This document shows positions 26,314 through 44,904 of a stretch of 64,000 nt of DNA, in pieces. The notes below the pieces were generated by a model, which ran no database searches, was not told the DNA's origin, and saw only the letters and a list, made by a program, of their open reading frames with translations. The first letter of the stretch is position 1. Each line of letters starts with the position of its first letter. Made by a program: the position numbers and the translations under genes. Source of the DNA: Pseudomonas purpurea (GTDB lineage: Bacteria; Pseudomonadota; Gammaproteobacteria; Pseudomonadales; Pseudomonadaceae); contig NZ_CP150918.1 of NCBI RefSeq assembly GCF_039908635.1, positions 5,867,564 through 5,931,563 on the forward strand. Reading direction: 5' to 3'.

Positions 26314-26375
26314 CACGGTTCTCCTTCTGCGCGCGGCGCAGTGTGGTCAGCCCGACGGCCCGGGCCATCACCTCA

Positions 26376-28038: not shown

Positions 28039-28328
28039 GGACCCACCTCTGTCAAAAGGAATTACCCAAGCCCTGCATCGCCTGCCAGCGGGGCGTCTTC
28101 ATGCAACCCCAGACGAAACTGACCCGGATTCCATGGACACTTTGCACGCTGATTGTGTAACACTTTTCACACTTTCACCGGTGACAGTCCCGGTGTACGT
28201 TTTGCGTACCCTGCCACTTGCCGGGGTTGCCACGTCAACCGATACACACCCTTTCGTCTGCGGTGCCTTTGCACCGGGCCGGCCTCTATCAGCCTTTTTC
28301 AGGCAACACGGTTTTTAAGGAGATCCTA

Positions 28329-29327
28329 GTGATCTGGTTTCTTGAGGGACAATCGAGCCAGCGTGACGTGCTCATGGGCGCACGCGAGGCATTGCCTGCC
28401 GATGTACGGATTTTCGCCTCGCACCGCCGCCAGCGCCCGGAGATCACGAGCCAGGCGGATGTCAGCCTGCAAGAGCCGCTGGATAACGAGGAACGCATCG
28501 ACTGGATCCTGCAAACCGCCAGGGAACACGGGATCAAAGTGATCCTGGCAGGGCGCATCGGTGGTTTCTACGAAGCGCGGCGGGCGCTGTTCGAGGCCCA
28601 GGGCATCACCCTGGTCACGGGCGGCATGTCGATGGAGACGTTCGCCTGTGTCGATGACAAAAGCCGCTTTACCGCCGAGTGCGAAGCCGCGGGCCTGGCG
28701 TGCGTACCGGCCATCACGGCGACCAACACCGCCGAGTTGATCAGCGCCTATGAAACCCTGGCAGCCTCTGGCGAGGTTTGCATCAAGCCGACCGTCGGCA
28801 TCTATGGCCAGGGCTTCTGGCGTTTCAAAGCCGAAGCGGACGCCTTCAGTTGCTTCGCCGACCCGGATGCCCGGCAAACCAGTTTCCAGGCGTACCTGCA
28901 CGCTTATCAACAGGCCGCCGAGCGCCCGCCGATGCTGGTCATGCCCTATATGGCTGGAAGCGAGTGTTCCGTGGACATGGTGTGCGAGAATGGCCGGGTT
29001 ATCGCCAGTGTCGGCCGTCGCAAAGAAGGGCTGAACCAGACATTCGAGCGTGATACCGATGCCGTTCGTCTGGCAATCCGGGCTGCCGAGCACTTCAAGT
29101 GCGACGGTCTGGTTAATGTACAGACCCGCGACAACGACAATGGGCAGCCTCACCTGCTGGAAATCAACCCGAGGTATTCCGGTGGCGTGGGTTATACGCG
29201 GCACGCAGGCGTGAACCTGGCCGGGATTTTCGCCACACGGCGCCTGGGGCTTACAGAGCCGGAAACAAATTGGCGCAATAATGTTTGTGTCAAAGCAATT
29301 ACCGTTGCCGTTTCGGCAACGGCTTGA
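28329..29327 (+). CDS. ATP-grasp domain protein, first gene of the Ter operon
   Basis: 332 residues from the GTG at 28329, which follows AAGGAG with good spacing; an ATG at 28218 would add 37 residues without family support. The ATP-grasp core is visible: a pre-grasp N-terminal part, KPTVGIYGQGFWRF as nucleotide-binding Lys and glycine loop, and the metal-binding HLLEINPRYSGG near the C-terminus (E and N ligands). ATP-grasp enzymes ligate a carboxylate to an amine or thiol. Comparative genomics places such an enzyme with Ter genes and phosphoribosyltransferases; the substrate is not known. The last 26 bp form a hairpin. Confidence 0.85.
   Translation: MIWFLEGQSSQRDVLMGAREALPADVRIFASHRRQRPEITSQADVSLQEPLDNEERIDWILQTAREHGIKVILAGRIGGFYEARRALFEAQGITLVTGGMSMETFACVDDKSRFTAECEAAGLACVPAITATNTAELISAYETLAASGEVCIKPTVGIYGQGFWRFKAEADAFSCFADPDARQTSFQAYLHAYQQAAERPPMLVMPYMAGSECSVDMVCENGRVIASVGRRKEGLNQTFERDTDAVRLAIRAAEHFKCDGLVNVQTRDNDNGQPHLLEINPRYSGGVGYTRHAGVNLAGIFATRRLGLTEPETNWRNNVCVKAITVAVSATA
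29302..29322 (+). terminator. Hairpin followed by U-rich tract at the end of the ATP-grasp gene
   Basis: A perfect 9-bp stem CCGTTGCCG/CGGCAACGG with a 3-base loop ends 5 bases before the stop of the ATP-grasp gene and is followed by CTTGATTTTATAATT. It could attenuate read-through to the TerD-trypsin gene; the T-tract is imperfect, so full termination is uncertain. Confidence 0.45.
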
Positions 29328-29388
29328 TTTTATAATTGGAATTTGCCATCAGTGATCTCACTGTGTGCCTGTTCAAGGAGAGATTCGG

Positions 29389-30522
29389 ATGAAGGTGCTC
29401 GCGCCTGGCGCAAACACCCCTCTTCCAGGTGCACAGAGCACATGGATACTAGAGTGTGAACGGACTTCGGTCTTCGGCGAGTTCGCCGCCGTGGCGCTGC
29501 TCCCGGTCGACGACAAACGCCAGTCCAAAGGTGAGCCTGCCCTGCTGCATCGGGAACAGTCATGGATGGAGTGGAGCGACGGCCCGGAAAAGGTCGGTTG
29601 TTCCCTCAAGCTGGACAAACTCCCCGTCGGCAGTGATCGGGTCCTGTTGCTGGCCTACACCTATTCGGCGGCCGGTCCGGTCAGCGACATGCAGGGTCTG
29701 CGGCTGACCATTGGCAGCGACATCGAATTCAAACTGAACCTGCGCGACAACGGCGAATCCTCGATCATTCTCGGCGAGTTCTACCGCCGCAATGCCGAGT
29801 GGAAATTCCGTGCGCTGTCCGAAGGTTCTGCCTATGGGCTGTCGGCCTTTGGCCGGCGCATCGGCCTGGACGTCGATGACAGCCATCCGACCCGCCGCGC
29901 AAGCGATGGCGGGCGACGCTGCGACTCCGCAACCGGCACCGCTTTTGCGGTCGGCACCAGCCACGTCATGACCTGCGCCCATGTCATCGAAGACATGCGC
30001 AGCCTGTACATCACCTCGTTCGAAGGCCGCTACCGGGCTGAACCCGTGGTCGTCGACCGGCGAAACGACATTGCCCTGCTCCGGGTCCATGAAGCACCCG
30101 CCCTCAAGTCCGTCGCGTTCAGCGATGGCAGCGGCTGCGCCCTGGGCGAAACCGTGGTGGCGCTGGGCTTTCCGCTGGCGAGCATTTCCGGCGGCGGTTT
30201 GCAGGTCACCCAAGGTGGCGTTTCCGGGCTGTTTGGCCTGCACAGCGACTCAAGCCTGTTCCAGTTCACTGCGCCGATTCAGCCAGGCTCCAGCGGCAGC
30301 CCGTTGTTCGATACCCGCGGTGCGGTGGTCGGCATGGTGACGTCGACGATCCCGGATGCGCAAAACATGAACTTTGCCGTCAAGGCCGGCCTGCTCACGG
30401 CGTTTCTGGATGCCTGTCGCGTGGCCACCACCCGAGAGGCGTCGGGCAAGACGTTCACGACCAGCGAAATCACGCAGACCGCACAGCCCTCGCTGTGGCT
30501 CGTCGAGGCCAGCAACACCTAG
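29389..30522 (+). CDS. TerD domain - trypsin-like serine protease fusion
   Basis: 377 residues from the ATG at 29389 with AAGGAGA upstream. Residues about 1-165 are a TerD domain (IILGEFYRRNAEWKFRAL matches the TerA segment LILGEFYRRQGAWKFRCV). Residues about 175-365 are a trypsin/HtrA-like protease with a complete triad: His198 in MTCAHVIED, Asp227 in RNDIALLRV and Ser302 in PGSSGSPL. There is no signal peptide and no PDZ domain, so it should act in the cytoplasm. A Ter metal/stress sensor joined to a protease suggests stress-triggered proteolysis, which is inference. It sits in the Ter operon, 61 bp after the ATP-grasp gene. Confidence 0.88.
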   Translation: MKVLAPGANTPLPGAQSTWILECERTSVFGEFAAVALLPVDDKRQSKGEPALLHREQSWMEWSDGPEKVGCSLKLDKLPVGSDRVLLLAYTYSAAGPVSDMQGLRLTIGSDIEFKLNLRDNGESSIILGEFYRRNAEWKFRALSEGSAYGLSAFGRRIGLDVDDSHPTRRASDGGRRCDSATGTAFAVGTSHVMTCAHVIEDMRSLYITSFEGRYRAEPVVVDRRNDIALLRVHEAPALKSVAFSDGSGCALGETVVALGFPLASISGGGLQVTQGGVSGLFGLHSDSSLFQFTAPIQPGSSGSPLFDTRGAVVGMVTSTIPDAQNMNFAVKAGLLTAFLDACRVATTREASGKTFTTSEITQTAQPSLWLVEASNT

Positions 30523-30599
30523 CCCTTTTTTCAGTTTTCAAAGGTTTAAGCGAGGCCCTCTGGTCTGCGGCCTGTACACACTTTTAGGAAATGCTTTCC

Positions 30600-31736
30600 A
30601 TGGACTGCAGCGTAGATACCCTTGAACCGACATCACTTCATGCCGACCTGCTTCGCGGTCGCCTGGACGTGCATATCGAGTCATCCTCCATCGCGCCCGA
30701 GTCTCTCTTCGGCTTTGCCGAACGACGCAACCCGAAACGCGCCTTCCTGTTCGTTTCGCGCGTATTGGGCCGCCACATTCCGGTACGCCCTTCGCGGATG
30801 CTCGAGAGTTTCGAACACCTGGCGACCAAAATACCGGCCGACCTGCCGGGGCCGGTGCTGGTCATCGGCATGGCCGAAACCGCCGTGGGCCTGGGCGCCG
30901 GTGTACACCGCGCCTACAGCGCGACCCGCCCGGACACCGTTTACCTGGTCAGTACCCGGCACCCACTGGGCACCGAACTGTTCGCCCGCTTCGAAGAAGA
31001 ACACAGCCACGCCAGCGCACACCTGATTCACCTGCCGCAGGACCCCGAGGTCAAGGCCATGATGTTGCAGGCCCGTTCGCTGGTACTGGTGGACGATGAA
31101 GCATCCACCGGCAAGACCTTCATCAACCTGCACCGGGCGCTGGTCGATGCCGGCCTGAGCCAGGTCGAACGTGTCGTGACCTGCGTGTTGACCGACTGGT
31201 CGGACGGCGCGGTTCGCGCGCACATGGGCGAAACCGCGGAACAGGTTTCGTTGCTGCAAGGCTCCTATCGCTTCACCGAAGACAGCAGCGCGCCCCTGCC
31301 GGACATGCCGCAAGTCGGTACGGTGGCCATCGGCGACTGGCCGCTCAAGGCTGCCAATGACTGGGGCCGACTGGGCGTTCGGTCGGTGGCCGATACGCTG
31401 GCGCCAGGCCTTGAAGTGAAACCCGGCGAGCGCATTCTGGTGGTCGGCACCAGCGAGTTCGTCTGGCGTCCGTTCCTGCTGGCCGAGCGCCTGGAAAAAG
31501 CCGGGGCCGACGTTCATTTCAGCTCCACCAGCCGCTCGCCCATTGCCCTGGGCCATGCCATCGACCACGCGCTGTCCTTCTCGGACAACTACGGCCTGGG
31601 CATTCCCAATTTCCTCTACAACGTCAAACCCGGTCAGTTCGACCGGGTGCTGATCTGCACCGAAACACCCGCCCAGGCGATTCCTGCCGAGCTGATCGAA
31701 ACCCTGAACGCGGAGATTGTTTGCGATGCCGAGTAA
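30600..31736 (+). CDS. Phosphoribosyltransferase with C-terminal TRSP domain
   Basis: 378 residues from the ATG at 30600, chosen because AGGA lies 10 bases upstream whereas the ATG at 30591 is too close to it. The N-terminal domain is a type I phosphoribosyltransferase with the PRPP loop LVDDEASTGKT (Asp165, Asp166). The C-terminal part contains LVVGTSEFVWRPFLLAERLE and the STSRSP segment, as in the TRSP domain that accompanies this family in Ter loci. The predicted reaction is transfer of ribose 5-phosphate from PRPP to an unknown base. It overlaps the HAD gene by 11 bp. Confidence 0.85.
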   Translation: MDCSVDTLEPTSLHADLLRGRLDVHIESSSIAPESLFGFAERRNPKRAFLFVSRVLGRHIPVRPSRMLESFEHLATKIPADLPGPVLVIGMAETAVGLGAGVHRAYSATRPDTVYLVSTRHPLGTELFARFEEEHSHASAHLIHLPQDPEVKAMMLQARSLVLVDDEASTGKTFINLHRALVDAGLSQVERVVTCVLTDWSDGAVRAHMGETAEQVSLLQGSYRFTEDSSAPLPDMPQVGTVAIGDWPLKAANDWGRLGVRSVADTLAPGLEVKPGERILVVGTSEFVWRPFLLAERLEKAGADVHFSSTSRSPIALGHAIDHALSFSDNYGLGIPNFLYNVKPGQFDRVLICTETPAQAIPAELIETLNAEIVCDAE

Positions 31737-32484
31737 GCGCCCACTGGTCCTGATCGACCTCGACGACACGCTGTTCCAGACCGCACGCAAGATGCCCGAA
31801 GGCATTGAGCGTCACGTGGCTACCCTGGATGTCGACGGGCAACCGAACGGCTACATGAACGCCGTCCAGAAAGCCTTTATCGAATGGCTGCTGGCCTGCG
31901 CCGACGTGGTCCCGGTGACCGCCCGTAGCGTCGAGGCGTACAGCCGCGTGCAATTGCCATTCACCGCTGGCGCCGTCTGCGCCCATGGTGGCGTGATCCT
32001 CGCGGCCGATGGCAGCCTGGACCGCGACTGGCACGCGCACATGACCCGCACACTGGCCAACGCCCAGGCGCGGTTGCCCGAGTTGAGCCTGGCGACCCTG
32101 GCGATCGGTGAACAACTGGGCTACTCGCTACGCGGCTGGGTTGTCGAAGAAGCCGGACTGGCCAATTACGTCGTGACCAAACACAACGAAAACAACGACC
32201 AGGTGCTGGACGAGGTCCTGGCCAAGGTCAAGGAACAGGGCCTGCTCGACGGCATGAGCGTGCACGGCAACGGTAACAACCTGGCCTTCCTGCCCCAGGG
32301 CTTGTCCAAGCGTCTGGCGGTTGAAGAATGGCTGCGCCGCGACAAGGCGATCAATGGCGAACGCCCGGTCATGGGGTTCGGTGACAGCATCACCGACCTG
32401 GGCTTCATGGATGCCTGCCACTTCTGGGGCACACCCGCCCGCAGCCAGTTGGCCAAAGCACTGGAAGCCGGCCTCAATGAGTAA
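31726..32484 (+). CDS. HAD superfamily hydrolase (Ter operon)
   Basis: 252 residues from the ATG at 31726, which lies inside the end of the phosphoribosyltransferase gene and follows GGAG by 10 bases. Motif I is LIDLDDTLFQT (nucleophile and acid-base Asp pair), motif II Thr in VVPVTARSVEAY, motif IV near VMGFGDSITDLGFM. A cap region lies between, as in Cof-like or sugar-phosphate phosphatases. Cytoplasmic phosphatase that could remove a phosphate from the PRPP-derived intermediate; the substrate is unknown. It overlaps the next gene by 8 bp. Confidence 0.87.
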   Translation: MPSKRPLVLIDLDDTLFQTARKMPEGIERHVATLDVDGQPNGYMNAVQKAFIEWLLACADVVPVTARSVEAYSRVQLPFTAGAVCAHGGVILAADGSLDRDWHAHMTRTLANAQARLPELSLATLAIGEQLGYSLRGWVVEEAGLANYVVTKHNENNDQVLDEVLAKVKEQGLLDGMSVHGNGNNLAFLPQGLSKRLAVEEWLRRDKAINGERPVMGFGDSITDLGFMDACHFWGTPARSQLAKALEAGLNE

Positions 32485-33571
32485 TTCTATCCACGCCCTG
32501 AGCACCGTCGGCAGCGGCAGCTATGCCGTCGATGACGTGCATTTCCTGCTCCAGCCGCTGGAAATCGAAGTCACCGACGTTGCGGAGAAGGAACGGCTGA
32601 TTCAGTCGAAAACCCGCCACTATTCGGAAATGATCAGCCAGGAAAACGCACCGACTGACGTGCATCAGGCCCTGTACGAGCGGGCCCTGAGCCAGAACGG
32701 CGCACGCATGGCCGCCGATGTCCAGGCACTGGCAATGGCGCTGGATCAGGCGTGCGACGGGCCGACTATCGCGCTGGTGTCGTTCGTGCGCGCGGGTCTG
32801 CCGCTGGGCGTGCTGCTGCGCCGGGCGCTGGTGCAAATGGGTCGCGAGACGTCTCACTACGGCATCAGCATCATCCGCGACCGTGGCATCGACAACGTGG
32901 CGCTGGACGCGATCATTGCGCTGCATGGCGCCGAAAACATAGTGTTCGTCGACGGCTGGACCGGAAAAGGCGCGATCAGCGGCGAAATCAAACGCAGCCT
33001 CAAGGGCGACTCGCGCTTCCCGCCCGAGCCTCGCCTGGTGGTGTTGGCCGACCCCTGCGGTCGGGCCTGGCTCGCTGCGTCTGCCGAAGACTGGGTGATC
33101 CCGTCAGGCATTCTCGGCGCAACGGTGTCGGGGCTGGTGTCACGCTCCATCTGGCCCGCGAACGGCGGTCTGCACGGTTGCGTGGTGTACAACCACCTTC
33201 ATGAACATGACGTGACGCGGCCGTTCATCGAGCAGATCGAAGCCGAGCGCCAGAAGCTCGGCGCAGTCACGCCCGCCACGCCTTGGTCCGAGGCGCAAAA
33301 ACTCCAGCTCCAGGGCGCTGCCGACGACGTGGTGCAGCAACTGGCCAAGCGTTTCGGGATCACCAACCTCAACCGTGTGAAGCCCGGCATCGCCGAAGCC
33401 ACGCGCGCCGTGTTGCGCCGGGTGCCCGACCACGTGCTGGTGCGCGACCGCACGGACCATGATGTGCAATTGCTCATGCACCTCGCCGAAAAGGCCGGCA
33501 TTGCCATCGAGGAAGTGGGCGCCGAGCTCGGTCCTTATCGTGCGGTCACCATCATCCGGAGCGTGAGCTGA
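32477..33571 (+). CDS. StiP/PRTase-family protein with C-terminal PELOTA RNA-binding domain
   Basis: 364 residues from the ATG at 32477 inside the end of the HAD gene; a longer frame to 32321 is rejected. The first 270 residues match the family called StiP (cysteine protease in one annotation, phosphoribosyltransferase in another): features are TIALVSFVRAGLPLGVLLRRAL, a YGISIIRDRGID loop, and IVFVDGWTGKGAI, which resembles a PRPP loop. Residues about 290-364 (VLVRDRTDHDVQLLMHLAEKAG and the end AVTIIRSV) look like the PELOTA/eL30-like RNA-binding domain. Function is unproven; I favour a phosphoribosyltransferase. Its stop overlaps the next start as TGATG. Confidence 0.8.
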   Translation: MSNSIHALSTVGSGSYAVDDVHFLLQPLEIEVTDVAEKERLIQSKTRHYSEMISQENAPTDVHQALYERALSQNGARMAADVQALAMALDQACDGPTIALVSFVRAGLPLGVLLRRALVQMGRETSHYGISIIRDRGIDNVALDAIIALHGAENIVFVDGWTGKGAISGEIKRSLKGDSRFPPEPRLVVLADPCGRAWLAASAEDWVIPSGILGATVSGLVSRSIWPANGGLHGCVVYNHLHEHDVTRPFIEQIEAERQKLGAVTPATPWSEAQKLQLQGAADDVVQQLAKRFGITNLNRVKPGIAEATRAVLRRVPDHVLVRDRTDHDVQLLMHLAEKAGIAIEEVGAELGPYRAVTIIRSVS

Positions 33572-34521
33572 TGCGCAACAAGTACTCACCCTATGCATTG
33601 GGCGCCACGCTCTACATGCCAGCGACGCGCAACGACATTCTGCAGATCGTCTTCAAGGAACGATTGCCTGAACTGCGTTCGCTGGTGGTGTGCCTGGAAG
33701 ACGCCGTTGCCGAGGTTGAAGTCGAAGACGCGCTGCGCAACCTTCACCACTTGCTGCGCCGCATCAAGGACCGTGTCGGGCGCCCCGCCGACGGCCCGCT
33801 GCTGTTCGTGCGCCCGCGTGACGCGGCCATGGCGGCGATTCTCAACGATTGGCCGCTGATGGATTACGTCGACGGCTTCGTGCTGCCCAAGCTCTCGCTC
33901 AGCAGCCTGAAAAGCTGGGAAGACGCGGTGACCAATCCAAAACTGGCGTTGATGCCGACCCTGGAAACCGCTGAAGTGTTCAACCCCGCCGCGATGGTTG
34001 AACTGGGCCAGGCCCTGAAGGCGGGTTTCAACGAGCGGATTATCGCGCTGCGCATTGGCGGCAACGACCTGATGGGTTGCCTGGGCCTGCGTCGCAACCC
34101 CGCGACCACGCTGTACGGCACGCCGATGAGTTACGTGATCCCGATGCTTGCCGGCGTCATGGGCTCCCAGGGGTTTGCCCTGACAGCCCCCGTGTTCGAA
34201 CAACTGGCAACGCCGCACATTCTGGAGGAGGAACTGGCCATCGACATTTCCCACGGGCTGGTCGGCAAAACCGCTATTCATCCGTCGCAAATCCACATCA
34301 TCCACAACGCCTTGCGCGTCAACCTCGATGATTTGAACTCCGCTCGCATGATCCTCAACTCGGTGGCGCCGGCAGTGTTCAAGTTCAACGATGCGATGTG
34401 CGAGCCGGCCACCCATTTCAAATGGGCGACCAACATCATTGAGCGGGCAAAATGGCACGGCGTCGTGCCTGCCCCCGCCGTGGTGATGGACTCCCTGTTG
34501 CTCGCCGAGGCTGCGCACTGA
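33571..34521 (+). CDS. HpcH/HpaI aldolase / citrate lyase beta (CitE)-like protein (Ter operon)
   Basis: 316 residues. A TIM-barrel of the CitE/HpcH family: LRSLVVCLEDAVAEVEVEDA (the E-D metal/substrate segment), LLFVRPRD with the binding Arg, VDGFVLPKLS, LMPTLETAEVF with the metal-binding Glu and GKTAIHPSQIHIIHNAL at the end. Family members cleave or form C-C bonds of short acyl or keto acids. CitE-like enzymes occur with ATP-grasp, PRTases and HADs in Ter loci. It begins on the last base of the StiP-like gene's stop codon. Confidence 0.87.
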   Translation: MRNKYSPYALGATLYMPATRNDILQIVFKERLPELRSLVVCLEDAVAEVEVEDALRNLHHLLRRIKDRVGRPADGPLLFVRPRDAAMAAILNDWPLMDYVDGFVLPKLSLSSLKSWEDAVTNPKLALMPTLETAEVFNPAAMVELGQALKAGFNERIIALRIGGNDLMGCLGLRRNPATTLYGTPMSYVIPMLAGVMGSQGFALTAPVFEQLATPHILEEELAIDISHGLVGKTAIHPSQIHIIHNALRVNLDDLNSARMILNSVAPAVFKFNDAMCEPATHFKWATNIIERAKWHGVVPAPAVVMDSLLLAEAAH

Positions 34522-34526
34522 TTACC

Positions 34527-35267
34527 ATGGATATTCAAGAGCAAACGCCCGTCCCGGTGCTGTCGGTTTTCGACTTTGACGGCACCCTGACCCGCCATGA
34601 CAGCTTTGTACCATTCCTGAGGTTCGCCTACGGCAACGGCCGTTTCGCGCTGTGCATGACCCGTATGCTGTTTCCCGGTTTGCGCTATCTGGTGGGCGGC
34701 CTCAACCGCGACGAACTCAAGGCCCACCTGATCCGGGTGTTCCTGACCGGCGAAAGCGCCCAATGGGTCAGCGCCAAGGCCGAAGCCTTCTGCGCGCAGT
34801 ACTGGACCCGGCTGCTGCGCCCCAACGGCCTGGTGGCGGTGGCTGCCGAAGTTGAATCCGGCGCCATCGTGACGCTCTGTTCGGCCTCGCCCGCGCTGGT
34901 ACTCAAACCCTTCGCCGAGCGCCTGGGGATCAAACTGATCGCGACGGAACTGGAAGTCATCGACGGCACCTTGACCGGCACCATCGTCGGTAACAACTGC
35001 CGAAGCCTGTTCAAGGTCCTGCGCCTGCAAAGTGTCTACGGTTCACTGACGCAGTTTCGCATCCGTGCATGGGGCGACACCCGTGGCGATCATGAACTGC
35101 TGGCCGCCGCCCAGGACCCGCACTGGCGGGTGTTTCACCCGGCCTGGCGTCGTCTTCGTAAAGTACGTTTTCAAAATGCCGACAACGTCAGCACGACAAG
35201 CACTGCGCAACGCGTTGAAGGCAACAGCAGCACCCCTACCAATTCTGAGCATCGACATGGAGAGTAA
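34527..35267 (+). CDS. HAD-IB family phosphatase (Ter operon)
   Basis: 246 residues from the ATG at 34527. Motif I is SVFDFDGTLTRHD, followed by SFVPFLRFAYGNGRFALC, and motif II is VTLCSASPALVLKPFAERLG with the conserved Ser; this is the serB/HAD-IB (PSPase-like) pattern. The Ser/Asp-rich C-terminal GDTRGDHELLAAA carries motif IV. No good ribosome site precedes the ATG (GAGG is 16 bases away), so translation may depend on coupling to the CitE-like gene, whose stop is 5 bp upstream. It is the second HAD phosphatase of the operon, 2 bp before terZ. Confidence 0.86.
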   Translation: MDIQEQTPVPVLSVFDFDGTLTRHDSFVPFLRFAYGNGRFALCMTRMLFPGLRYLVGGLNRDELKAHLIRVFLTGESAQWVSAKAEAFCAQYWTRLLRPNGLVAVAAEVESGAIVTLCSASPALVLKPFAERLGIKLIATELEVIDGTLTGTIVGNNCRSLFKVLRLQSVYGSLTQFRIRAWGDTRGDHELLAAAQDPHWRVFHPAWRRLRKVRFQNADNVSTTSTAQRVEGNSSTPTNSEHRHGE

Positions 35268-35269
35268 AC

Positions 35270-35860
35270 ATGGCACTTACTTTGGCTAAAAACCAAACTA
35301 TCTCGCTGGAAAAGACCGCTGGAACCGGGTTGAAAAAAGTCAGCATGGGCCTGGGTTGGGACCCGGAGAAAGCCGGTGGTTTCTTCGGCAAGCTGATGGG
35401 CAGCACCAACGACATCGACCTCGACGCCTCCTGCATTCTGCTGGATGAAAGCAAGAAGCCGGTCGACCTGGTCTGGTTCCGCCAACTGATGTCCCGTGAT
35501 GGCGCCATCCGCCACTCCGGCGACAACCGCACCGGTGAAGGCGCGGGCGATGACGAAACCATCTTCGTCGACCTGGAAAAACTGCCGGGTTCGGTCAAGT
35601 ACCTGGTGTTCACCGTGAACTCGTTCACTGGCCAGAACTTCGAAAAAGTCGCCAATGCCTACTGCCGCATCGTCGATGACGCCGGCCGTAAAGAACTGGG
35701 CCGTTTCGACCTGTCCGAGAAAGGTCGCCACACCGGCATCGTCATGGCCTATCTGGCCCGCAATGCAGGCGGCTGGGATTTCACCACCGTGGGCGAAGTC
35801 ACCAACGGCCGTACCGCAGACGACCTGGTTGACCTGGCAATCGCGGCGGTGCGCACATGA
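35270..35860 (+). CDS. terZ: TerD-family protein TerZ
   Basis: 196 residues, one TerD domain. The Ca-binding type acidic motifs are present (GWDPE, DIDLDASCILLD, GDNRTGEGAGDDETIFVDL). The order terZ-terA-terB-terC-terD-terE equals that of the plasmid R478 and E. coli O157 ter genes, and the longer, diverged segment KAGGFFGKLMGSTN after GWDPE is a TerZ mark. TerZ-type proteins are cytoplasmic or membrane-associated calcium-binding proteins linked to tellurite resistance, phage inhibition and colicin tolerance; the molecular role is not settled. The stop overlaps the terA start by 4 bp. Confidence 0.9.
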   Translation: MALTLAKNQTISLEKTAGTGLKKVSMGLGWDPEKAGGFFGKLMGSTNDIDLDASCILLDESKKPVDLVWFRQLMSRDGAIRHSGDNRTGEGAGDDETIFVDLEKLPGSVKYLVFTVNSFTGQNFEKVANAYCRIVDDAGRKELGRFDLSEKGRHTGIVMAYLARNAGGWDFTTVGEVTNGRTADDLVDLAIAAVRT

Positions 35861-37029
35861 CAAACCTGGCTCCTGGCGCGAATGCTCCGGTAGCCACGGG
35901 CCAGCTGACGGTTACCGTCAGCTTCTCCCAGCTCCCGGGCGCAGACATTGATGTATCGGCGTTTGTACTGAACGACGCGGGCAAAGTCCGCGGCGATCAG
36001 GACATGTGTTTCTACGGACAAAAAAGCGTCAATAACGGGGCCGTCCAACTGACGGAAACGGCCGCTGGCCGTACAGTTTTCACCCTGGATCTGAGCAAGA
36101 TCGACGCTGTCGTGGAAAAAGTCGCCCTGACGGCCACCATCTACGAAAACAAGGCGCGGTTCGACAGCGTTTCCCACCTGTCGTTGAGTGTCAGCGGTGG
36201 GATCGAAGCCAGTATTCCTACCAACGGAATGCAGGAAACCGCACTGATCCTCGGCGAGTTTTACCGTCGCCAGGGTGCCTGGAAGTTCCGCTGTGTCGCC
36301 CAAGGGTTTGCCGGTGGCCTGGAGCCCCTGGCTAAACACTTTGGTGTTGAAGTCGCAGCGCCATCTCCAACGCCAACACCTGCTCCGACGCCAGCGCCGG
36401 CAGCGGTCAAGTCCAGCATCAGCCTGAGCAAGATCACCCTGGACAAGACCCGCTCCAGCATCAGCCTGGAAAAGGGCAGCAGCGATTTCGGCGAGATCAA
36501 GATCAACCTGAACTGGAACCGTGCCAGCAATGGCGGCGGTGGCGGCTTCTTCTCGCGCCTGAAGTCCGATGCCATCGACCTGGACGTCGGTTGCCTGTTC
36601 GAACTCGCCGACGGTTATAAAGGTGCCGTGCAGGCCCTGGGTAACTCGTTCGGTGATTTCAACAATGAACCGTACATCCAGTTGATGGGCGATGACCGGA
36701 CCGGTTCGGTCAGCGACGGCGAATGGCTGCGCATCAACGGCAAGCAGTGGAAAGACATCAAACGCATCCTGGTGTACGCCTTCATTTACGAAGGCGCGCC
36801 GAACTGGAAGGCCACCGATGGGGTTGTGACCATCTATGTGCCGGGCCAGCCGCCGATTGAAGTGCGGGTCAGCGAGGAAGGTGGACGCCAGGGCATGTGT
36901 GCAATCGCACTCCTGGAAAACGACGCAGGCGCGGTCAAGGTCTCCCGTCGGGTCGACTTCTTCCGTGGGCACTCCGACATGGACAAGGCTTACGGCTGGG
37001 GCATGAAGTGGTCCGCAGGGTCCAAATAA
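35857..37029 (+). CDS. terA: Two-domain TerD-family protein TerA
   Basis: 390 residues. It has an N-terminal TerD-like domain (residues about 1-165, ending QGFAGGLEPLAKHFGVE), a linker rich in Pro, Thr and Ala at 168-185, then a second domain (about 190-390) with SISLEKGSSDFGEIKINLNWNR and DAIDLDVGCLFEL. TerA of this length and order is characteristic of ter operons. The linker implies two independent globular domains. It overlaps terZ by 4 bp. A GC-rich hairpin lies in the 49-bp gap before terB. Confidence 0.9.
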   Translation: MTNLAPGANAPVATGQLTVTVSFSQLPGADIDVSAFVLNDAGKVRGDQDMCFYGQKSVNNGAVQLTETAAGRTVFTLDLSKIDAVVEKVALTATIYENKARFDSVSHLSLSVSGGIEASIPTNGMQETALILGEFYRRQGAWKFRCVAQGFAGGLEPLAKHFGVEVAAPSPTPTPAPTPAPAAVKSSISLSKITLDKTRSSISLEKGSSDFGEIKINLNWNRASNGGGGGFFSRLKSDAIDLDVGCLFELADGYKGAVQALGNSFGDFNNEPYIQLMGDDRTGSVSDGEWLRINGKQWKDIKRILVYAFIYEGAPNWKATDGVVTIYVPGQPPIEVRVSEEGGRQGMCAIALLENDAGAVKVSRRVDFFRGHSDMDKAYGWGMKWSAGSK

Positions 37030-37040
37030 ATCATCAGCAC

Positions 37041-37062
37041 CGCGGGGCCTTCCGGCCCCGCG
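37041..37062 (+). promoter_or_regulatory. Intercistronic GC-rich hairpin between terA and terB
   Basis: A perfect 9-bp stem CGCGGGGCC/GGCCCCGCG around the loop TTCC, followed by no T-tract. It is more likely a mRNA stability or processing element setting the terZA/terB ratio than a terminator. Confidence 0.5.
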
Positions 37063-37078
37063 TATTGGGAGAATCAAA

Positions 37079-37528
37079 ATGCTCGAATGGTTGAAGACAA
37101 ATGCCACAGCGGCACGCGACAAACTGGCCAGCGAAGTCACCAAGTTCAAGAACCGTGAGTTCATGGACGCCGTGGTCGCCGGTTGTGCACTGGTCGCGGC
37201 AGCCGATGGCGACATCAGCTCCGAAGAAAAACAGAAAATGATGGGTTACATCCAGAACTCGCAAGAGCTCAAGGTGTTCGACGCCAAGGATGTCATCAAA
37301 TCGTTCCAGGAAATTTGCGGCAAGTTTGAATTCGACAACGCCATCGGCCGTGCCGAAGCGTTGAAGGTCATCGCAAAAATCAAAAGCAAACCAGACGCAG
37401 CGCGTCTGTTGGTTCGCGTTTGCTGCGCAATCGGGGGTGCCGACGGTTCCTTCGACGAAAGCGAACGTGCTGTTTGCCGCTCCATCTGCAATGAGCTGGG
37501 CCTGAGCCCCGCTGACTTCGATCTCTAA
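37079..37528 (+). CDS. terB: Tellurite-resistance TerB-family protein
   Basis: 149 residues. The TerB fold is all-helical with conserved acidic positions that bind metal: FMDAVVAGCALVAAADGDISSEEKQKM and later AIGGADGSFDESERAVCRSIC. Two internal D-G-[DS]-x-[DS]-E type loops repeat about 90 residues apart, the pattern of this family. TerB interacts with TerC at the membrane in characterised systems. It starts after GGGAGA with good spacing and terC follows 11 bp later. Confidence 0.93.
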   Translation: MLEWLKTNATAARDKLASEVTKFKNREFMDAVVAGCALVAAADGDISSEEKQKMMGYIQNSQELKVFDAKDVIKSFQEICGKFEFDNAIGRAEALKVIAKIKSKPDAARLLVRVCCAIGGADGSFDESERAVCRSICNELGLSPADFDL

Positions 37529-37539
37529 GGTAAACACCT

Positions 37540-38571
37540 GTGGAAAATACTGCTCTGGGCTTCCCGCCCCTCACCATCGCGGTCTTCGTAGGCCTGGCCT
37601 TGTCGGCCATGGTCCTCGACATGCTGACCCACCGGGGTGACAAGCCGGTCTCGCTCACCAAAGCCGCTGTCTGGTCGGTGTTCTGGGTTCTGATTTCCCT
37701 GGGCTTCGCCGGTTATCTGTATGTCGAACACGGCCCGTCTGTGGCCAGCCTGTTCATCACCGGCTACGCCCTGGAGAAAGTCCTGAGCGTGGACAATCTG
37801 TTTGTGTTCATGGCGATCTTCGCCTGGTTCAAGATCCCGGATGGCCTGCGCCACCGTGTTCTGTACTGGGGCATTATCGGCGCGATCGTCTTCCGCCTGA
37901 TCTTCGTGGCCATCGGTACCGGTCTGCTGATGTTCGGCCCGTGGGTCGAGGTGATCTTTGCCCTGATCGTCGGCTGGACCGCGGTCATGATGCTCAGAGC
38001 GGGCGGTGACGACGAAGAGGAAGAGGACTACTCCAAGCACATGGCCTACCGCTTCGCCGCGAAACTGTTCCCGGTATGGCCAAAACTGCATGGCCATAAC
38101 TTCTTCGTGCGTCGTTCGGTCCTTGAAAAAGAGCTGAACAAACCCGAGAACAAGGGCATCAGCCTGCCGGTCAAAGGCGCACTGTTCGCCACGCCGCTGT
38201 TCCTTTGCGTATTCGTGATGGAAATCTCCGACGTGCTGTTCGCCTTCGACTCGGTACCGGCAGTTATTGCGGTCAGCCGTGAACCGTTGATCGTGTACTC
38301 GGCTATGCTGTTCGCGATTCTGGGCCTGCGGACCATGTACTTCGTCCTCGAAGCACTGAAACGCTACCTGGTGCACCTGGAGAAAGCCGTCATCGCACTG
38401 CTGTTCTTCATTGCCGCCAAACTGGGCCTCAATGCAACCGATCACCTGTTTCACCACGGTTACAGCATCGATGCCAACACCAGCCTGTTTGTCGTGCTGA
38501 TCGTGCTGGCCATCGGTATCGTCGCCAGCCTGATCTTCCCTGCAAAGGAAGACGAGGCAGAAAACGCTTAA
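37540..38571 (+). CDS. terC: TerC-family integral membrane protein
   Basis: 343 residues from a GTG start, the length of plasmid-type TerC. Seven to nine hydrophobic segments are visible, with the conserved acidic/amide residues in membrane segments: SVDNLFVFMAIF after the first loop and DVLFAFDSVPAVIAVS, typical of a TerC metal-handling core. In E. coli and other bacteria the TerC family includes Mn exporters, and in Ter systems it is the membrane partner of TerB. No Mn-sensing yybP-ykoY riboswitch is seen upstream. Confidence 0.94.
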   Translation: MENTALGFPPLTIAVFVGLALSAMVLDMLTHRGDKPVSLTKAAVWSVFWVLISLGFAGYLYVEHGPSVASLFITGYALEKVLSVDNLFVFMAIFAWFKIPDGLRHRVLYWGIIGAIVFRLIFVAIGTGLLMFGPWVEVIFALIVGWTAVMMLRAGGDDEEEEDYSKHMAYRFAAKLFPVWPKLHGHNFFVRRSVLEKELNKPENKGISLPVKGALFATPLFLCVFVMEISDVLFAFDSVPAVIAVSREPLIVYSAMLFAILGLRTMYFVLEALKRYLVHLEKAVIALLFFIAAKLGLNATDHLFHHGYSIDANTSLFVVLIVLAIGIVASLIFPAKEDEAENA

Positions 38572-38598
38572 GTCCAAACCTAAAGGAGTAACAGAGAA

Positions 38599-39174
38599 AT
38601 GGCACTGACCCTTCAGAAAGGCGGAAACCTGTCCCTTTCGAAAACCGACCCTTCGCTGACCAAGATTCTGGTCGGTCTGGGCTGGGACCCACGCGCTACA
38701 GACGGAGCTGAATTCGATTTGGACGCCAGTGCATTTCTGCTTGGCGCCAACGGCAAGGTACGTAGCGACGCGGACTTCATTTTCTACAATCAGCTCAAAA
38801 GTGCTGATGGCTCGGTTGAACACACCGGCGACAACCGTACCGGCGCCGGCGACGGTGACGACGAAGTGGTCAAGGTCGACCTGAGCCGTGTACCGGCTGA
38901 CGTCGACAAAATTGCCTTCACCGTGACCATCCACGACGCTGAAGCACGCAAGCAGAACTTCGGCCAAGTGGGCAATGCGTTCATCCGCATCGTCAACGAA
39001 GTGACTGGCGCTGAAATCGTTCGTTATGACCTGGCCGAAGACGCCAGCGTTGAAACCGCAATGATCTTCGCCGAGCTGTACCGCAACAATGGCGAGTGGA
39101 AATTCCGTGCTGTCGGCCAAGGTTATGCCGGTGGCCTGAAAGCTACCGCCAACCAATACGGCATGAGCTTCTAA
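38599..39174 (+). CDS. terD: TerD-family calcium-binding stress protein
   Basis: 191 residues, the archetype length of TerD. It contains [24 protein letters not shown], the acidic loop [21 protein letters not shown], and the C-terminal [27 protein letters not shown]. In structures of this family two Ca ions are held by these acidic residues. It is preceded by AAAGGAG. The next gene encodes a near paralogue, so the pair is a tandem duplication. Confidence 0.92.
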
Positions 39175-39207
39175 GCTGTCCCACCCCATTTAAAAGAGGA
39201 ATCAATC

Positions 39208-39786
39208 ATGGCGGTAAGTCTGAGCAAAGGCGGCAACGTTTCCCTGTCCAAAGAGGCTCCGGGCCTGACCGAAGTCATCGTGGGCCTGGGTTGGGATCCG
39301 CGCGTGACCGACGGTCAAGAGTTCGACCTGGACGCTTCGATCTTCATCGTTGGCGAAAATGGCAAAGTCCTCGATGACAACAGCTTCATTTTCTACAACA
39401 ACAAGAAGTCTGCCGATGGCAGCGTCGAGCACCTGGGCGACAACCGCTCCGGCGCAGGCGAAGGTGACGACGAGCAGGCAGTGGTCAAGCTGACCTCCCT
39501 GGCAGCCGCCGTCCAGAAGCTGGTGTTCGCGGTCACTATCCACGACGCTGAAGCCCGCAAGCAAAGCTTCGGCCAGGTTTCCAACGCTTACATCCGCGTT
39601 GTGAACAAGGCTGACGGCAAGGAACTGGCGCGCTACGACCTGTCGGAAGACGCTTCCACCGAGACCGCAATGATCTTCGGTGAGCTCTATCGCAATGGCG
39701 CCGAGTTCAAGTTCAAGGCCATCGGCCAAGGCTTCGCTGGCGGCCTCAAGCCTCTGGCTGAAGCTCACGGCGTGAGCATCGGCTAA
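39208..39786 (+). CDS. terE: TerD-family calcium-binding stress protein
   Basis: 192 residues, closely related to the preceding terD product across the whole length ([56 protein letters not shown]). It occupies the terE position and has AGAGGA upstream of its ATG. It is the last gene of the plus-strand Ter operon: a strong terminator starts 17 bp after the stop. Confidence 0.92.
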
Positions 39787-39802
39787 CCCGCAAGGGTGCC
39801 CC

Positions 39803-39834
39803 AAAAGCCCCTGCCGATTGGCAGGGGCTTTTTC
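39803..39834 (+). terminator. Rho-independent terminator of the Ter operon
   Basis: A 13-bp stem, AAAAGCCCCTGCC with GGCAGGGGCTTTT, closes on the loop GATT and is followed by a T-run. It lies 17 bp after the terE stop and is the strongest terminator in the Ter region. Confidence 0.92.
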
Positions 39835-39972
39835 TTGTCTGCCACAACCTCGCAATACCGCTGTTTCTACTGGCGCCGATACTGGCCAAGGGACGAAACA
39901 ACAAGGAGCTCGGCATGGATCGAGCGTATTTGCCAACGGCCTGCACAGGCCGATCTATCAGCAAGGATGAAC

Positions 39973-40974
39973 ATGAACCTCTTGCTCAAGGCGCGCCTAT
40001 GCCTGGCCGCCCTCGGTTATCTGGTCATTTGCAACACCGCCTGGGCCGCCAGCTTCAACTGCGCCAACGCGACGACTTACTCGGAAAACGCCATCTGCTC
40101 GAACGAAGCGTTTTCCAGGCTCGATGAAAAAATCAGCTCGTTGTTTACCCAAAGCATGGAACTGACGGACGAAAAAGCCGCCTTGCGCCAGGATCAGCGC
40201 GACTGGCTGGCCTCCCGCAACACCTGCGCCACCGCCGCCTGTGTCGGCGAGCAACTGCGCGAGCGGGTCGAGTTCCTGCAAGACTATCGGGCAGGCCTCA
40301 CACCTGCACCTTCTGTCATGGCGCCGGTTCCCGCCCCTGCACCGGTCATTGCGGCGCCAGCGCCGGTGATCACGCCACCTGCGGTGCACGCCCCGACAGT
40401 CGCCCCACAAGCCACCCACCCCGCTGCACCCGCACCCTCTGCCGCCGCTCCGGTGCAGGCACCGCGCAAAGACCCCTCGTTACTGCCCGCCAAACTGGCC
40501 GGCCTGGCGATGCTGATCGTGGTGTTGGCGAGTATCTGGCTGCACCACCGCGGAACGCTGACCATTTACGCCGATTACACCGATGCGACCTGGACCAGCG
40601 TCACGCCGATGCTGGGGATCGTTTCGTACTGGGTGTTCCGCTTCTTTGAGATACCGCACCCGTACGCCCTGATCGCTGCGGGCATCCTGTTCAGCCTGAT
40701 GATGGTTCAAGTGGTCCGCCAGACCTACAAGAGCAACGGCGTGTCGGTGTACTTCCTGATGGCGCTCATGGCCAAGATGATCATGATTGGCGCCTACCTC
40801 ATCGTGATGATCGTGCTGATCATCGGCAAGTCACGCACCCAGCGCGAGGCACGCAACAAACGCCGGGCTATAGCCGCCATCACGTCGCTGTTCGTGCTGC
40901 TCTCGGGCTGGCTGTGCCGGGACCGCCGGTTCACCCCGCTGGGGGTTTATCTGGAAGGGCAAACCACGCCTTGA
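39973..40974 (+). CDS. LprI/DUF1311-like exported domain fused to membrane segments
   Basis: 333 residues from the ATG at 39973, chosen for AAGGA five bases upstream; an ATG six bases earlier is possible. A signal peptide (LCLAALGYLVICNTAWA) leads to a Cys-rich domain, FNCANATTYSENAICSNEAFSRLDEKISSLF and LRQDQRDWLASRNTC, the pattern of the LprI/DUF1311 family, which includes lysozyme inhibitors. A linker of Ala/Pro repeats (about residues 100-165) precedes four hydrophobic segments at the C-terminus. It is transcribed after the Ter terminator and convergent with the TerD-vWA gene. A Ter link is positional only. Confidence 0.75.
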   Translation: MNLLLKARLCLAALGYLVICNTAWAASFNCANATTYSENAICSNEAFSRLDEKISSLFTQSMELTDEKAALRQDQRDWLASRNTCATAACVGEQLRERVEFLQDYRAGLTPAPSVMAPVPAPAPVIAAPAPVITPPAVHAPTVAPQATHPAAPAPSAAAPVQAPRKDPSLLPAKLAGLAMLIVVLASIWLHHRGTLTIYADYTDATWTSVTPMLGIVSYWVFRFFEIPHPYALIAAGILFSLMMVQVVRQTYKSNGVSVYFLMALMAKMIMIGAYLIVMIVLIIGKSRTQREARNKRRAIAAITSLFVLLSGWLCRDRRFTPLGVYLEGQTTP

Positions 40975-41039
40975 GCTTCAGTCATCGCATGCCGGGCGCT
41001 ACCAGGTGACCTGTGGATAACCTGGCAGCGATCAGCCGA

Positions 41040-42299
41040 TCAACACAGAATGAAGGCGTCCCTGGCGGCCTTGAGCCAGTCCGGGAACTCCTCCATCAGT
41101 TGGTCATATAACTGCTCTTCGCTGATGTCGTTGAGGTTATCCAGGGCAAAGAAGTTGCAGTTATCCACAACCCGGCCGTCCATGTCGTCGAGCTTCTCCA
41201 GAATGCCGTAGCCAGAACCGCCCAACCCGACGAACTGCCAGAAGATCGGCAACTTGGCCGCCTCTTTCATCAGTTTGGTGATGGCCCGATTTTCGTGGAC
41301 GCCGCCGTCACTGATAAACAGCACGTAGATCGGCGTGCGGTCACCGGAATTCTTGTAGTAGTCGATCACCTGGCGCATGGCTTTAGGCTCGTCGTTGACC
41401 CGACTGCCCACATTCCATTTTTTCCAGCCGCCATTGTCCTGATTGACGTAATCCTGGTAGTTGCCGAGCGTCACCGACGACAACTGGCACGGCTTGGCGC
41501 CGAACGCCCAGCAGTCGAGCGCACCGTCATCATCGAAATGCACCGCCAGCGGTAACAGGCGGTTGATCACTTCCTGCACGTGCCCACCCGAATATTGGCC
41601 CGTCATCGAACCCGAGGCATCCAGCACCAGCCCGACCCGTGCCTTGACGTCAGTGAGCTTGGCTTTCTCCAGACTGATTTGGGCTTTCTTGGCCAGACTG
41701 ACCAGCGCGGGTGCCGCCGCCGCGACTTTCTTCTCAAGGGAGATTTTTGGCGTAGCGAGCGGTGGCGCGGGCGCTGGGGCCGGGACCGGTTCATCCGCAA
41801 CCGAGCCGCCGAAATGCTCGACCAGCGCAGCCAGGCCGGCATTGAACCCCTGGAGATTGGAGAGCATCCGCCACTCACCATTCTTGCGGTAGATGTCCGC
41901 GACCATGATCGCCTTCTCACCGTCAAACGTCGCACCGTTGAAGCCGCAACTGGCTACTTCGTGGCCGTTGGCCTGGATGCTGAAACGGCTCGACTGAATG
42001 TCGCGCATCGCCCCGCCACCGTCGATCGACGCGGTGAACACCATGCGATCAATCGTTGCCGGCAAGCCTGCCAGGTTGATCTGGAAGTCGCCGCCATCGG
42101 ACAGCTTCAGGCTGTTGCACGGTGACGCCGGCTGGTTGAAGAAAATCATGTAGCGGTCGTCAGAGAGCTTGCCCTGAGCATCCACCCCAAAGCAGACGTA
42201 GTCGATGACATCGCGCGAATCGATCTTGATCGACAGCGTCAGCGAGTCGCCCTGGATGAGGGTCGCCAACGGTACGCGCTGGCCCTGTGTAATGAGCAT
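41040..42299 (-). CDS. terF: TerD domain - von Willebrand A domain protein (TerF-like)
   Basis: 419 residues. Residues about 1-165 are a TerD domain (VIDYVCFGVDAQGKLSDDRYMIFF, EKAIMVADIYRKNGEWRML, QGFNAGLAALVEHFGG). A linker rich in Ala and Pro follows, then repeated LEK-containing segments, then a vWA domain from about residue 215 with the MIDAS D-x-S-x-S in LVLDASGSMTG and the later Thr and Asp positions. This is the terF architecture of R478-type loci. It is on the strand opposite the main operon and reads away from glmS. Confidence 0.9.
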   Translation of the reverse strand: MLITQGQRVPLATLIQGDSLTLSIKIDSRDVIDYVCFGVDAQGKLSDDRYMIFFNQPASPCNSLKLSDGGDFQINLAGLPATIDRMVFTASIDGGGAMRDIQSSRFSIQANGHEVASCGFNGATFDGEKAIMVADIYRKNGEWRMLSNLQGFNAGLAALVEHFGGSVADEPVPAPAPAPPLATPKISLEKKVAAAAPALVSLAKKAQISLEKAKLTDVKARVGLVLDASGSMTGQYSGGHVQEVINRLLPLAVHFDDDGALDCWAFGAKPCQLSSVTLGNYQDYVNQDNGGWKKWNVGSRVNDEPKAMRQVIDYYKNSGDRTPIYVLFISDGGVHENRAITKLMKEAAKLPIFWQFVGLGGSGYGILEKLDDMDGRVVDNCNFFALDNLNDISEEQLYDQLMEEFPDWLKAARDAFILC

Positions 42300-42466
42300 T
42301 TAAAGGCTCCTGTTCCCTGGATGAGCTGGACGAAGGCACCGATAGTACCCGTAAAACACCCAACATTGGCTGGTCGTTGAAGCCAACCAAATAACGGCCC
42401 AGCCCTTAGACCTTGAGGGTTCATTGTGTAAGCTTGGTGCAAGGAATAATGGTTACGGAGCAACAC

Positions 42467-42949
42467 ATGGACGATACACACACGCCGCTGCTGATTCAGC
42501 TATACGCCGCAGAAAAAGACGGGCCGTTTCTTGAGGAGCTGCCTGCTCGCCCGTTGGGAGATGACACCTACGAGTTACTCTCTTCCCCTGGCCTGATATT
42601 GAACCTGGCGCGGGGAGATGTTGTTTCAATCAAGGACAAGAATGCCCCGGCCGTGGTTGTGAAACGCGGGGGTAACTTCTGCATTCAGATCTACGCCGAC
42701 AGCATTCCCGAACACGAAATAGAAACCCTCGAAAACGATGTGATTCGTGAACTCAATGGCACCCTGGATGGTGTCTTCGAAGGGAACCTGTCGCTGGCCG
42801 TCCCGGCAAAAAACGGCATGGACGCCATCAATAAGTTCTTCGACCGGTTCCGCGAAAGAACAGGCATCCAGTGGTACTACGCCAACATTTACAAAAATCT
42901 CGACGATGACGATGACGAAACCTTGCTGTATTGGTGGCTCGACAGCTGA
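42467..42949 (+). CDS. DUF4265-like protein of unknown function
   Basis: 160 residues from the ATG at 42467 (CGGAG six bases upstream); an ATG at 42449 with its own AAGGA is an alternative. The N-terminal half, with ARGDVVSIKDKNAPAVVVKRGG and the beta-rich start IQLYAAEKDGPFLEELPARPLG, resembles DUF4265 proteins. The C-terminus is very acidic (DDDDDE) and ends WWLDS. Soluble, no enzyme motif. It is divergent from terF with about 170 bp between and convergent with glmS. Assignment to the family is by eye. Confidence 0.7.
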   Translation: MDDTHTPLLIQLYAAEKDGPFLEELPARPLGDDTYELLSSPGLILNLARGDVVSIKDKNAPAVVVKRGGNFCIQIYADSIPEHEIETLENDVIRELNGTLDGVFEGNLSLAVPAKNGMDAINKFFDRFRERTGIQWYYANIYKNLDDDDDETLLYWWLDS

Positions 42950-42990
42950 GCCGGGTACGGCCGTTTTCCGAGGCGCTTTCGGAAAAACAA

Positions 42991-43013: not shown

Positions 43014-43040
43014 GGGCAGTGCGTCTGACGCTACGGGTGC

Positions 43041-44903: not shown

Positions 44904-44904
44904 G

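Follow-up and report, generated by a model that had tools for sequence, protein, structure and literature searches.

Comparative genomics by Anantharaman, Iyer and Aravind in 2012 linked a set of small-molecule enzymes to the Ter stress-response genes (cited in PMC7824862 and PMC8115787; papers given by PMC number are, here and below, cited from excerpts), and the system so described brings together phosphoribosyltransferases (PRTases), HAD phosphatases, TerD, TerB, TerC and TerF (PMC7824862). With regard to the ter genes themselves, terZ-F is enough to make E. coli MG1655 tellurite-resistant (PMC8115787), terCD of P. citronellolis confers tellurite resistance (PMC8779313), and terC has a role in Zn, Mn and phage tolerance (PMC12054061). 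That terZ-F or terCD alone can provide resistance suggests that the enzymes do something beyond basic tellurite resistance. A product of the Ter-module enzymes has been predicted since 2012, and we know of none that has been identified. Here we analyze a Ter enzyme locus in the final 64 kb of the 5.93-Mb single-contig genome of Pseudomonas purpurea (contig NZ_CP150918.1, positions 5,867,564 to 5,931,563; this whole stretch of 64,000 nucleotides is termed the window). It shares the Ter-module Pfam families PF15632, PF15609, PF12500, PF11202, PF15608 and PF15617, and differs from the 2012 system, as known from the citing papers, in lying on one strand and in carrying a TerD-protease gene in second position.

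The locus consists of 13 genes on the plus strand (28329-39786), separated in order by 61, 68, -11, -8, -1, 5, 2, -4, 49, 11, 27 and 33 bp. TerD-family proteins, TerB and TerC are encoded together, genes for a PRTase_2-TRSP protein, a HAD phosphatase, a PRTase_1-PELOTA protein and a lyase are adjacent to one another, and an ATP-grasp ligase of family PF15632 is present. A sequence-only reading of this DNA had described a single plus-strand run of twelve genes extending to terE; the run is real, and the count is thirteen. Its 11-, 8-, 4- and 1-bp overlaps are exact in the measured gaps, and a 13-pair hairpin downstream of terE and a convergent terF-like gene lie where it had placed a strong terminator and such a gene (Table 1). 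Pfam likewise bears out the families it listed (TerD, TerA, TerB and TerC proteins, two PRTases, two HAD phosphatases, a lyase, an ATP-grasp enzyme and a TerD-protease), naming 12 of the 13 genes; the one without a Pfam match, gene 4 (HAD1), is HAD-like by TIGR01484 (27.8 bits, below the cut-off of 41.8) and by its resemblance to solved phosphatases. The association of these enzyme families with Ter, which it attributed to earlier comparative genomics, is the one cited in PMC7824862 and PMC8115787. We think it fairly probable that the locus is one transcription unit combining a small-molecule pathway with stress proteins thought to respond to its product. Internal promoters splitting the operon would have spoken against co-transcription: a scan of positions 26000-45900 returned one sigma-70 promoter-like site versus 4.1 expected in shuffles, and so simple a scan has little power, such that internal promoters are neither found nor excluded.

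The gene order is strongly conserved where the locus occurs. We scanned 149 Pseudomonas genomes with PF15617 (set 1), taking E<1e-90 as a strong match, and obtained strong matches in 23 genomes at 25 places; weaker matches were other CitE-like proteins, apart from one (G327 C56) that is a piece at a contig end. The Ter enzyme locus is thus an accessory trait in Pseudomonas. With the locus itself set aside, 24 strong places remain; in these the genes for PRTase_2, HAD1, the StiP-type PRTase (hereafter StiP) and the lyase are contiguous in every one, and the complete 13-gene order of the window recurs in 20. The departures are L069, which lacks the protease; L083 and L085, which lack ATP-grasp, protease and HAD2 (the second HAD phosphatase), L085 additionally lacking one terD-type gene; and L080, which retains remnants of ATP-grasp and protease, has no HAD2, and carries its ter genes on the other strand. 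A second set was assembled by scanning genome contigs with a StiP alignment and keeping the best 80 of 583 relatives. In it the same four genes are contiguous in 76 loci, the remaining four having a short, missing or cut gene, so that related loci keep the enzymes whose loss the sequence-only reading had named as telling against it, and all 13 genes stand in the window's order in 33. Its retention at 20 of 24 other Pseudomonas loci and at 33 of 80 in set 2 shows that this order is not due to chance. Enzymes and ter genes on one strand are the rule in Pseudomonas and Burkholderia loci. Two Pseudomonas genomes, G401 (L072/L077) and G335 (L081/L082), each hold two full-size copies of both the lyase and the TerD-protease, and at a distant locus (L089) PRTase_2, StiP and lyase occur with no HAD1 match between them and are followed by genes that by eye look like hydrogenase-maturation genes.

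Beyond this four-gene core, the ATP-grasp enzyme and HAD2 tend to travel together. For the loci of set 2 we extended the search to whole genomes for HAD2 (32 loci) and ATP-grasp (24 loci), counting HAD2 at E<1e-100 only and treating as paralogues the matches at about 1e-30 to 1e-37 that are present in several genomes, in Burkholderia too. Both genes were found for 51 loci, ATP-grasp only for 9, HAD2 only for 2 and neither for 17, with 1 undetermined (from the local stretches alone: 47, 10, 2 and 21). Burkholderia sp. D-99 (L107) holds fragments of both. The first 24 loci (21 with both, 3 with neither) had pointed to a strict pair; the 11 exceptions among the 80 weaken that. Their co-travel suggests that ATP-grasp and HAD2 form a tailoring pair acting on the same branch, atop the four-gene core. 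K111, K153, E212, E278 and N280 of the ATP-grasp enzyme are invariant in an alignment of 12 sequences; enterobacterial ter loci carry an orthologue of HAD2 at 55-61% identity; and the lyase of the core keeps E43, R81, E132, N165 and D166 in 19 of 19 sequences and has a profile match to the citrate-lyase chain 3qll (E 8.7e-11).

HAD1 provides a direct connection to existing experimental work. Against the PDB it matches two sequences at about 400 bits, both deposited as trehalose phosphatase (6D3V/6D3W; 6CJ0), with 175 of 248 residues (71%) identical to 6D3V, and D11, D13, T65, K195, D220 and D224 are kept in all 20 aligned sequences. The only cysteines in the HAD1-matched stretch of the PDB chain are at 85 and 231 (numbered from the first methionine), the two named for the extrachromosomal trehalose-6-phosphate phosphatase (TPP) of P. 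aeruginosa in PMC6838324. The plasmid gene closest to the PDB chain (99.6% identical) is on p2017-45-137A, between annotated PRTase and StiP genes; in this ter operon (L183) two IS1182 transposase genes occupy the TerD-protease and terA positions, and the other operon genes are annotated. HAD1 of the P. aeruginosa megaplasmid Rms139 is 93% identical to the PDB chain and shares 181 of 252 residues with HAD1 of the window. Because sequence and gene neighborhood agree, HAD1 and the crystallized trehalose phosphatase appear to be the same type of enzyme, and an enzyme of the Ter pathway has, judged by sequence, been crystallized and assayed under a name that masks its neighborhood. In the literature collection searched, no paper contains both "trehalose-6-phosphate phosphatase" and "TerD". 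If the two are indeed of the same type, one step of the pathway already has a structure and an assay, and the question of the product turns into one of substrate profiling. HAD1 relatives occur on 2557 of 72,556 plasmid records, mostly at <60% identity; another relative (P0344) comes from a symbiont bacterium of Paederus fuscipes.

PRTase_2 of the core has the canonical DDE..TG.T loop for phosphoribosyl pyrophosphate (PRPP), with D168, D169, E170, T173, G174 and T176 present in 22 of 22 sequences; the vicinal acid pair is absent from the StiP alignment. An AlphaFold2 model of StiP (predicted local distance difference test, pLDDT, 91.7; predicted template modelling score, pTM, 0.91) predicts a phosphoribosyltransferase fold at residues ~56-250, of type I and with a PRPP loop, followed by an L7Ae/PELOTA domain at ~280-363. 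By a small margin, the best fold match is CriT of the Haemophilus influenzae type b (Hib) capsule enzyme; by title, the 50 matches listed are PRTases, PyrR, the capsule enzyme, and L7Ae or ribosomal-type chains. The predicted fold thereby links StiP to PRPP-dependent O-ribosyl chemistry. It also disfavors a cysteine protease, as the Pfam name would have it, C234 being near-invariant all the same (31 of 32 aligned sequences, with H232 in 32 of 32).

The TerD-protease joins a potential sensor domain to a conserved catalytic triad. At an E-value cut-off of 0.001, a search returned 496 proteins, and all 120 listed combine a trypsin and a TerD domain; every one of 38 aligned sequences has the His-Asp-Ser triad (H198, D227, S302). 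In the model (pLDDT 81.2, pTM 0.53), whose best Foldseek match is DegS (DegS/HtrA; E 8.5e-11, spanning the protease half), the predicted TerD-like domain starts near residue 1. A PDZ domain is not among its Pfam matches (E up to 0.001), and the N-terminal half is TerD-like. That half lacks the DLD and DNRTG..GDDE motifs, as does terF, while these are retained at least partly in TerD, TerE, TerZ and the second TerA half (in the TerZ-like protein, as DLDAS and DNRTGEGAGDDE). These motif positions bind Ca2+ in Klebsiella TerD (PMC8779313), and TerD has been suggested to recognize nucleotide derivatives (PMC7159879). Within Pseudomonas, the protease occurs in 19 of the 149 genomes, all of them among the 23 with a strong lyase match (a Fisher test of this association ignores shared ancestry), and none was detected in the other 126 at E up to 1e-40. 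Of the set 2 loci, 35 of the 48 from Pseudomonas, 5 of the 7 from Burkholderia and 2 of the remaining 25 have it. The TerD-protease is a potential readout of what TerD domains sense.

Most likely, the locus encodes a PRPP-dependent pathway, and TerD-family proteins read its product. This reading builds on the gene order, the domains, the catalytic residues, the PRTase fold of the StiP model, and the restriction of the TerD-protease to pathway-bearing Pseudomonas genomes. The annotated PRT-HAD-PRT run close to a TerD-family gene in jumbo phage ME3 (described below) also speaks for it. The core, PRTase_2-TRSP and StiP-PELOTA with HAD1 between them, would transfer a 5-phosphoribosyl group onto an acceptor and remove a phosphate; the acceptor, and whether the bond is N- or O-glycosidic, we can only infer. 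The CitE-like lyase would build or trim the carbon skeleton, after which ATP-grasp may ligate a carboxylate with an amine or amino acid, and HAD2 may take off another phosphate. Upon some trigger, TerZ, TerA, TerD and TerE, together with membrane-associated TerB/TerC, would act as sensors of Ca2+, of the product or of both, and the TerD-protease, presumably cytoplasmic, would cleave some target once its TerD half is engaged.

Several observations weigh against this reading. The one-strand arrangement is not universal: of 16 enterobacterial-type loci, 15 have their ter genes on the strand opposite the enzymes, as do L080 and L100 in Pseudomonas. ATP-grasp occurs without HAD2 in nine loci and HAD2 without ATP-grasp in two, and the Fisher test of their association (5e-9) ignores shared ancestry. 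Set 2 is skewed toward close relatives: 48 of the 80 loci are Pseudomonas by title, and species partly overlap those of set 1. Finally, 7 of 42 TerD-protease loci have neither ATP-grasp nor HAD2 locally (one being a 4.6-kb contig, and L107 having fragments of both), so that the protease is not dependent on the tailoring pair.

The name given to the crystallized homologue raises the alternative that HAD1 is an ordinary trehalose-6-phosphate phosphatase and that stress protection by trehalose is part of what the operon does. Names in databases and the titles of PDB entries point this way, and phosphatase activity of the homologue has been measured, in assays that need trehalose-6-phosphate (PMC6838324). 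We nevertheless regard this alternative as very unlikely. HAD1 has no Pfam match with an E-value of 0.001 or less, and hence none to a family of OtsB type, and even with E up to 1 allowed its profile brings up no further trehalose phosphatase from the PDB. No trehalose-6-phosphate synthase is encoded in the operon, and OtsA (PF00982) is absent from 22 of the 23 operon genomes, that of P. purpurea included, as against its presence in 6 of 14 controls; an ordinary OtsB is therefore disfavored. Another source of trehalose-6-phosphate is the trehalose phosphotransferase system (PTS), which scores above cut-off in the window's own genome and in 6 of the other 22 (7 of 23), and below it in 5 more, one of which (G348) has broken fragments. 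The 2018 original paper on the P. aeruginosa enzyme is said to report specific hydrolysis of trehalose-6-phosphate, and in P. purpurea, with its trehalose PTS, that compound is a possible HAD1 substrate. By the cut-offs used, 15 of the 23 genomes have neither OtsA nor trehalose PTS, and because they lack a source of trehalose-6-phosphate, HAD1 would act on something else there. A different sugar phosphate is probably the real substrate, perhaps one resembling trehalose-6-phosphate that the operon makes. Also improbable, if less so than trehalose protection, is antiphage signaling, in which infection would trigger synthesis of the small molecule and this in turn activate the TerD-protease, with death or arrest of the cell as the outcome. 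Ter has been linked to phage inhibition (PMC12054061), the protease domain resembles the trypsin domains of defense models, and jumbo phage ME3 carries part of the module: genes annotated PRT, HAD and PRT follow one another there, with a single small gene separating them from a TerD-family gene, and no lyase or ATP-grasp is annotated in the 19 kb covered (all named by annotation, StiP alone having been matched by sequence; the presence of a Ter system in ME3 was previously published, PMC7824862). Two viral contigs (L175, L176) encode StiP relatives, 75% and 37% identical. The phage phenotypes reported in the excerpts concern terC and other ter genes, however, rather than the enzymes (PMC12054061), and the protease is found in just 2 of 25 loci outside Pseudomonas and Burkholderia. 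When 10 proteins were scanned with PADLOC, the generic trypsin domain of gene 2 alone produced matches (5 models) and the other nine none, leaving membership in a known antiphage system unsupported.

The remaining alternatives concern what is made. The nucleoside-like metabolite predicted in 2012, in which both PRTases would act on nucleobase-like rings, the HAD phosphatases would yield a nucleoside and TerD would bind it, is a serious contender to which we give a little less than an even chance. Against it stand the description of the assayed HAD1 homologue as a trehalose-6-phosphate phosphatase, the absence of vicinal acids from StiP, and the fact that no base-making enzyme is recognized among the 13 genes. 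The other candidate is O-ribosylation: one PRTase would move ribose-5-phosphate from PRPP to a sugar or polyol hydroxyl, HAD1 would remove the 5-phosphate, and lyase and ATP-grasp would extend the ribofuranosyl glycoside. We consider this rather unlikely, while giving it some weight. More speculative still is the fuller version, in which a soluble PRPP-dependent O-ribosylation core is followed by lyase and ATP-grasp/HAD2 to finish a ribofuranosyl conjugate that is read by TerD domains, including the TerD half of the protease, which is thereby switched on. Were such a core to exist, the Ter signal would be a ribosyl glycoside rather than a nucleoside. As to product class, the evidence on the PRPP-dependent pathway that we favor allows a nucleoside-like compound or a ribosylated sugar.

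Table 1. Features of the Ter enzyme locus and its surroundings, in window positions
Feature	Position	Strand	Basis and remarks
ATP-grasp ligase of Ter module	28329..29327	+	GTG start; PF15632 ATPgrasp_Ter 139 bits (cut-off 29.1)
Gene 2, TerD + HtrA/trypsin-like serine protease	29389..30522	+	PF02342 + PF13365 (Trypsin_2)
PRTase_2 + TRSP phosphoribosyltransferase	30591..31736	+	PF15609 202 bits, PF12500 71 bits
HAD1, gene 4, HAD phosphatase	31726..32484	+	homologue of crystallized P. aeruginosa "trehalose phosphatase"
StiP/PRTase_1 + PELOTA_1	32477..33571	+	PF11202 301 bits, PF15608 94 bits
CitE/HpcH-like C-C bond lyase	33571..34521	+	PF15617 338 bits
HAD2, HAD-IB phosphatase	34527..35267	+	PF12710 82.5 bits, TIGR01488 83 bits
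TerZ-like TerD-domain protein	35270..35860	+	PF02342 161 bits; Ca2+ motifs
TerA, two TerD-like halves	35857..37029	+	PF02342 123 bits; same-place gene on Rms139 named TerA
TerB	37079..37528	+	PF05099 93 bits
TerC membrane protein	37540..38571	+	GTG start; PF03741 141 bits
TerD	38599..39174	+	PF02342 297 bits; Ca2+ motifs
TerE	39208..39786	+	PF02342 277 bits
Intrinsic terminator, 13-bp stem, T-rich tail	39803..39832	+	terminator-like hairpin scan
LprI-like gene, outside operon	39967..40974	+	PF07007 21.2 bits, just below cut-off 22
TerF, TerD + vWA (vWA-TerF), convergent	41040..42299	-	PF10138 276 bits, PF02342 84 bits

The Pfam and profile queries for HAD1, StiP and HAD2 used starts a few codons off those in Table 1, in frame (HAD2 at 34521). 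Of the terminator-like hits in 26000-45900, which number 27 with both strands counted (shuffle mean 21.5), the hairpin downstream of terE ranks first. A terminator-like repeat with a weak T tract lies at the end of the ATP-grasp gene (29302-29322), and a GC-rich hairpin with 9-bp arms and a 4-base loop, without a T tract, between terA and terB (37041-37062); the latter possibly has a role in mRNA processing. The LprI-like gene, absent from the sequence-only reading, sits between terminator and terF, and relatives of it occur within 20 kb of 3 of the 24 other Pseudomonas loci; LprI and terF aside, none of the tested genes flanking the operon in the window was found around these 24 loci at E up to 1e-20. 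Both terF and a DUF4265 gene (41040-43070) are located directly downstream of glmS, a position that we take to be the attTn7 region. In 6 genomes of the same genus, the 13-18 kb downstream of glmS contain no ter gene and no flanking gene of those tested, and because terF and the DUF4265 gene are missing there in these six relatives, the site is variable. Elsewhere in the P. purpurea genome, at ~3.424 Mb of C1 and ~2.5 Mb from the operon, a 448-amino-acid open reading frame (L091, 4839-6185) encodes a second TerD-family protein, TerA-like by eye, with two cystathionine-type-looking reading frames 1.6-3 kb further on (by eye).

Compared with described systems, the locus as such is not the new biology for which the sequence-only reading had called it the best candidate: P. 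aeruginosa megaplasmid Rms139 (LC653116, L172), which we take to belong to the IncP-2 group, matches it gene for gene, with all 13 in unchanged order, and Pfam families are already named for the system. Rms139 differs in that its copy is plasmid-borne and in that no terF is annotated within the stretch read. The Klebsiella and other enterobacterial ter loci have the same core enzymes, ATP-grasp and ter genes, but in the 15 enterobacterial-type loci with opposite strands the ter genes are divergent from ATP-grasp-PRT2-HAD1-StiP-lyase, HAD2 is within the stretch in 8 of 16 (beyond terE or terF in 7 of these 8) and elsewhere in the genome for 3 more, and the TerD-protease was found in none of the 16; the published description of the Klebsiella locus agrees, including a conserved HAD gene after terF (PMC8115787). 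A TerD-trypsin protein with the architecture of gene 2, YP_273108.1 of P. syringae, was listed in 2008 as uncharacterized, and in the excerpt of that listing a link to the Ter enzyme module goes unmentioned (PMC2605481). The P. aeruginosa extrachromosomal TPP (6CJ0, 6D3V, 6D3W) differs from HAD1 in having been published as a trehalose enzyme. The Hib Bcs3 enzyme (CriT + CrpP, 8A0C) resembles the core in its PRTase-like fold, HAD phosphatase partner and PRPP donor, and in CriT of Bcs3 a hydroxyl is ribosylated before the HAD enzyme takes off the phosphate; Bcs3 is a polymerase, by contrast, and the likeness is that of the StiP fold. While the locus type has thus already been published, what is new is the connection of HAD1 to a solved structure and an assay, of StiP, through its fold only, to O-ribosyl chemistry, and of the TerD-protease to the enzyme module.

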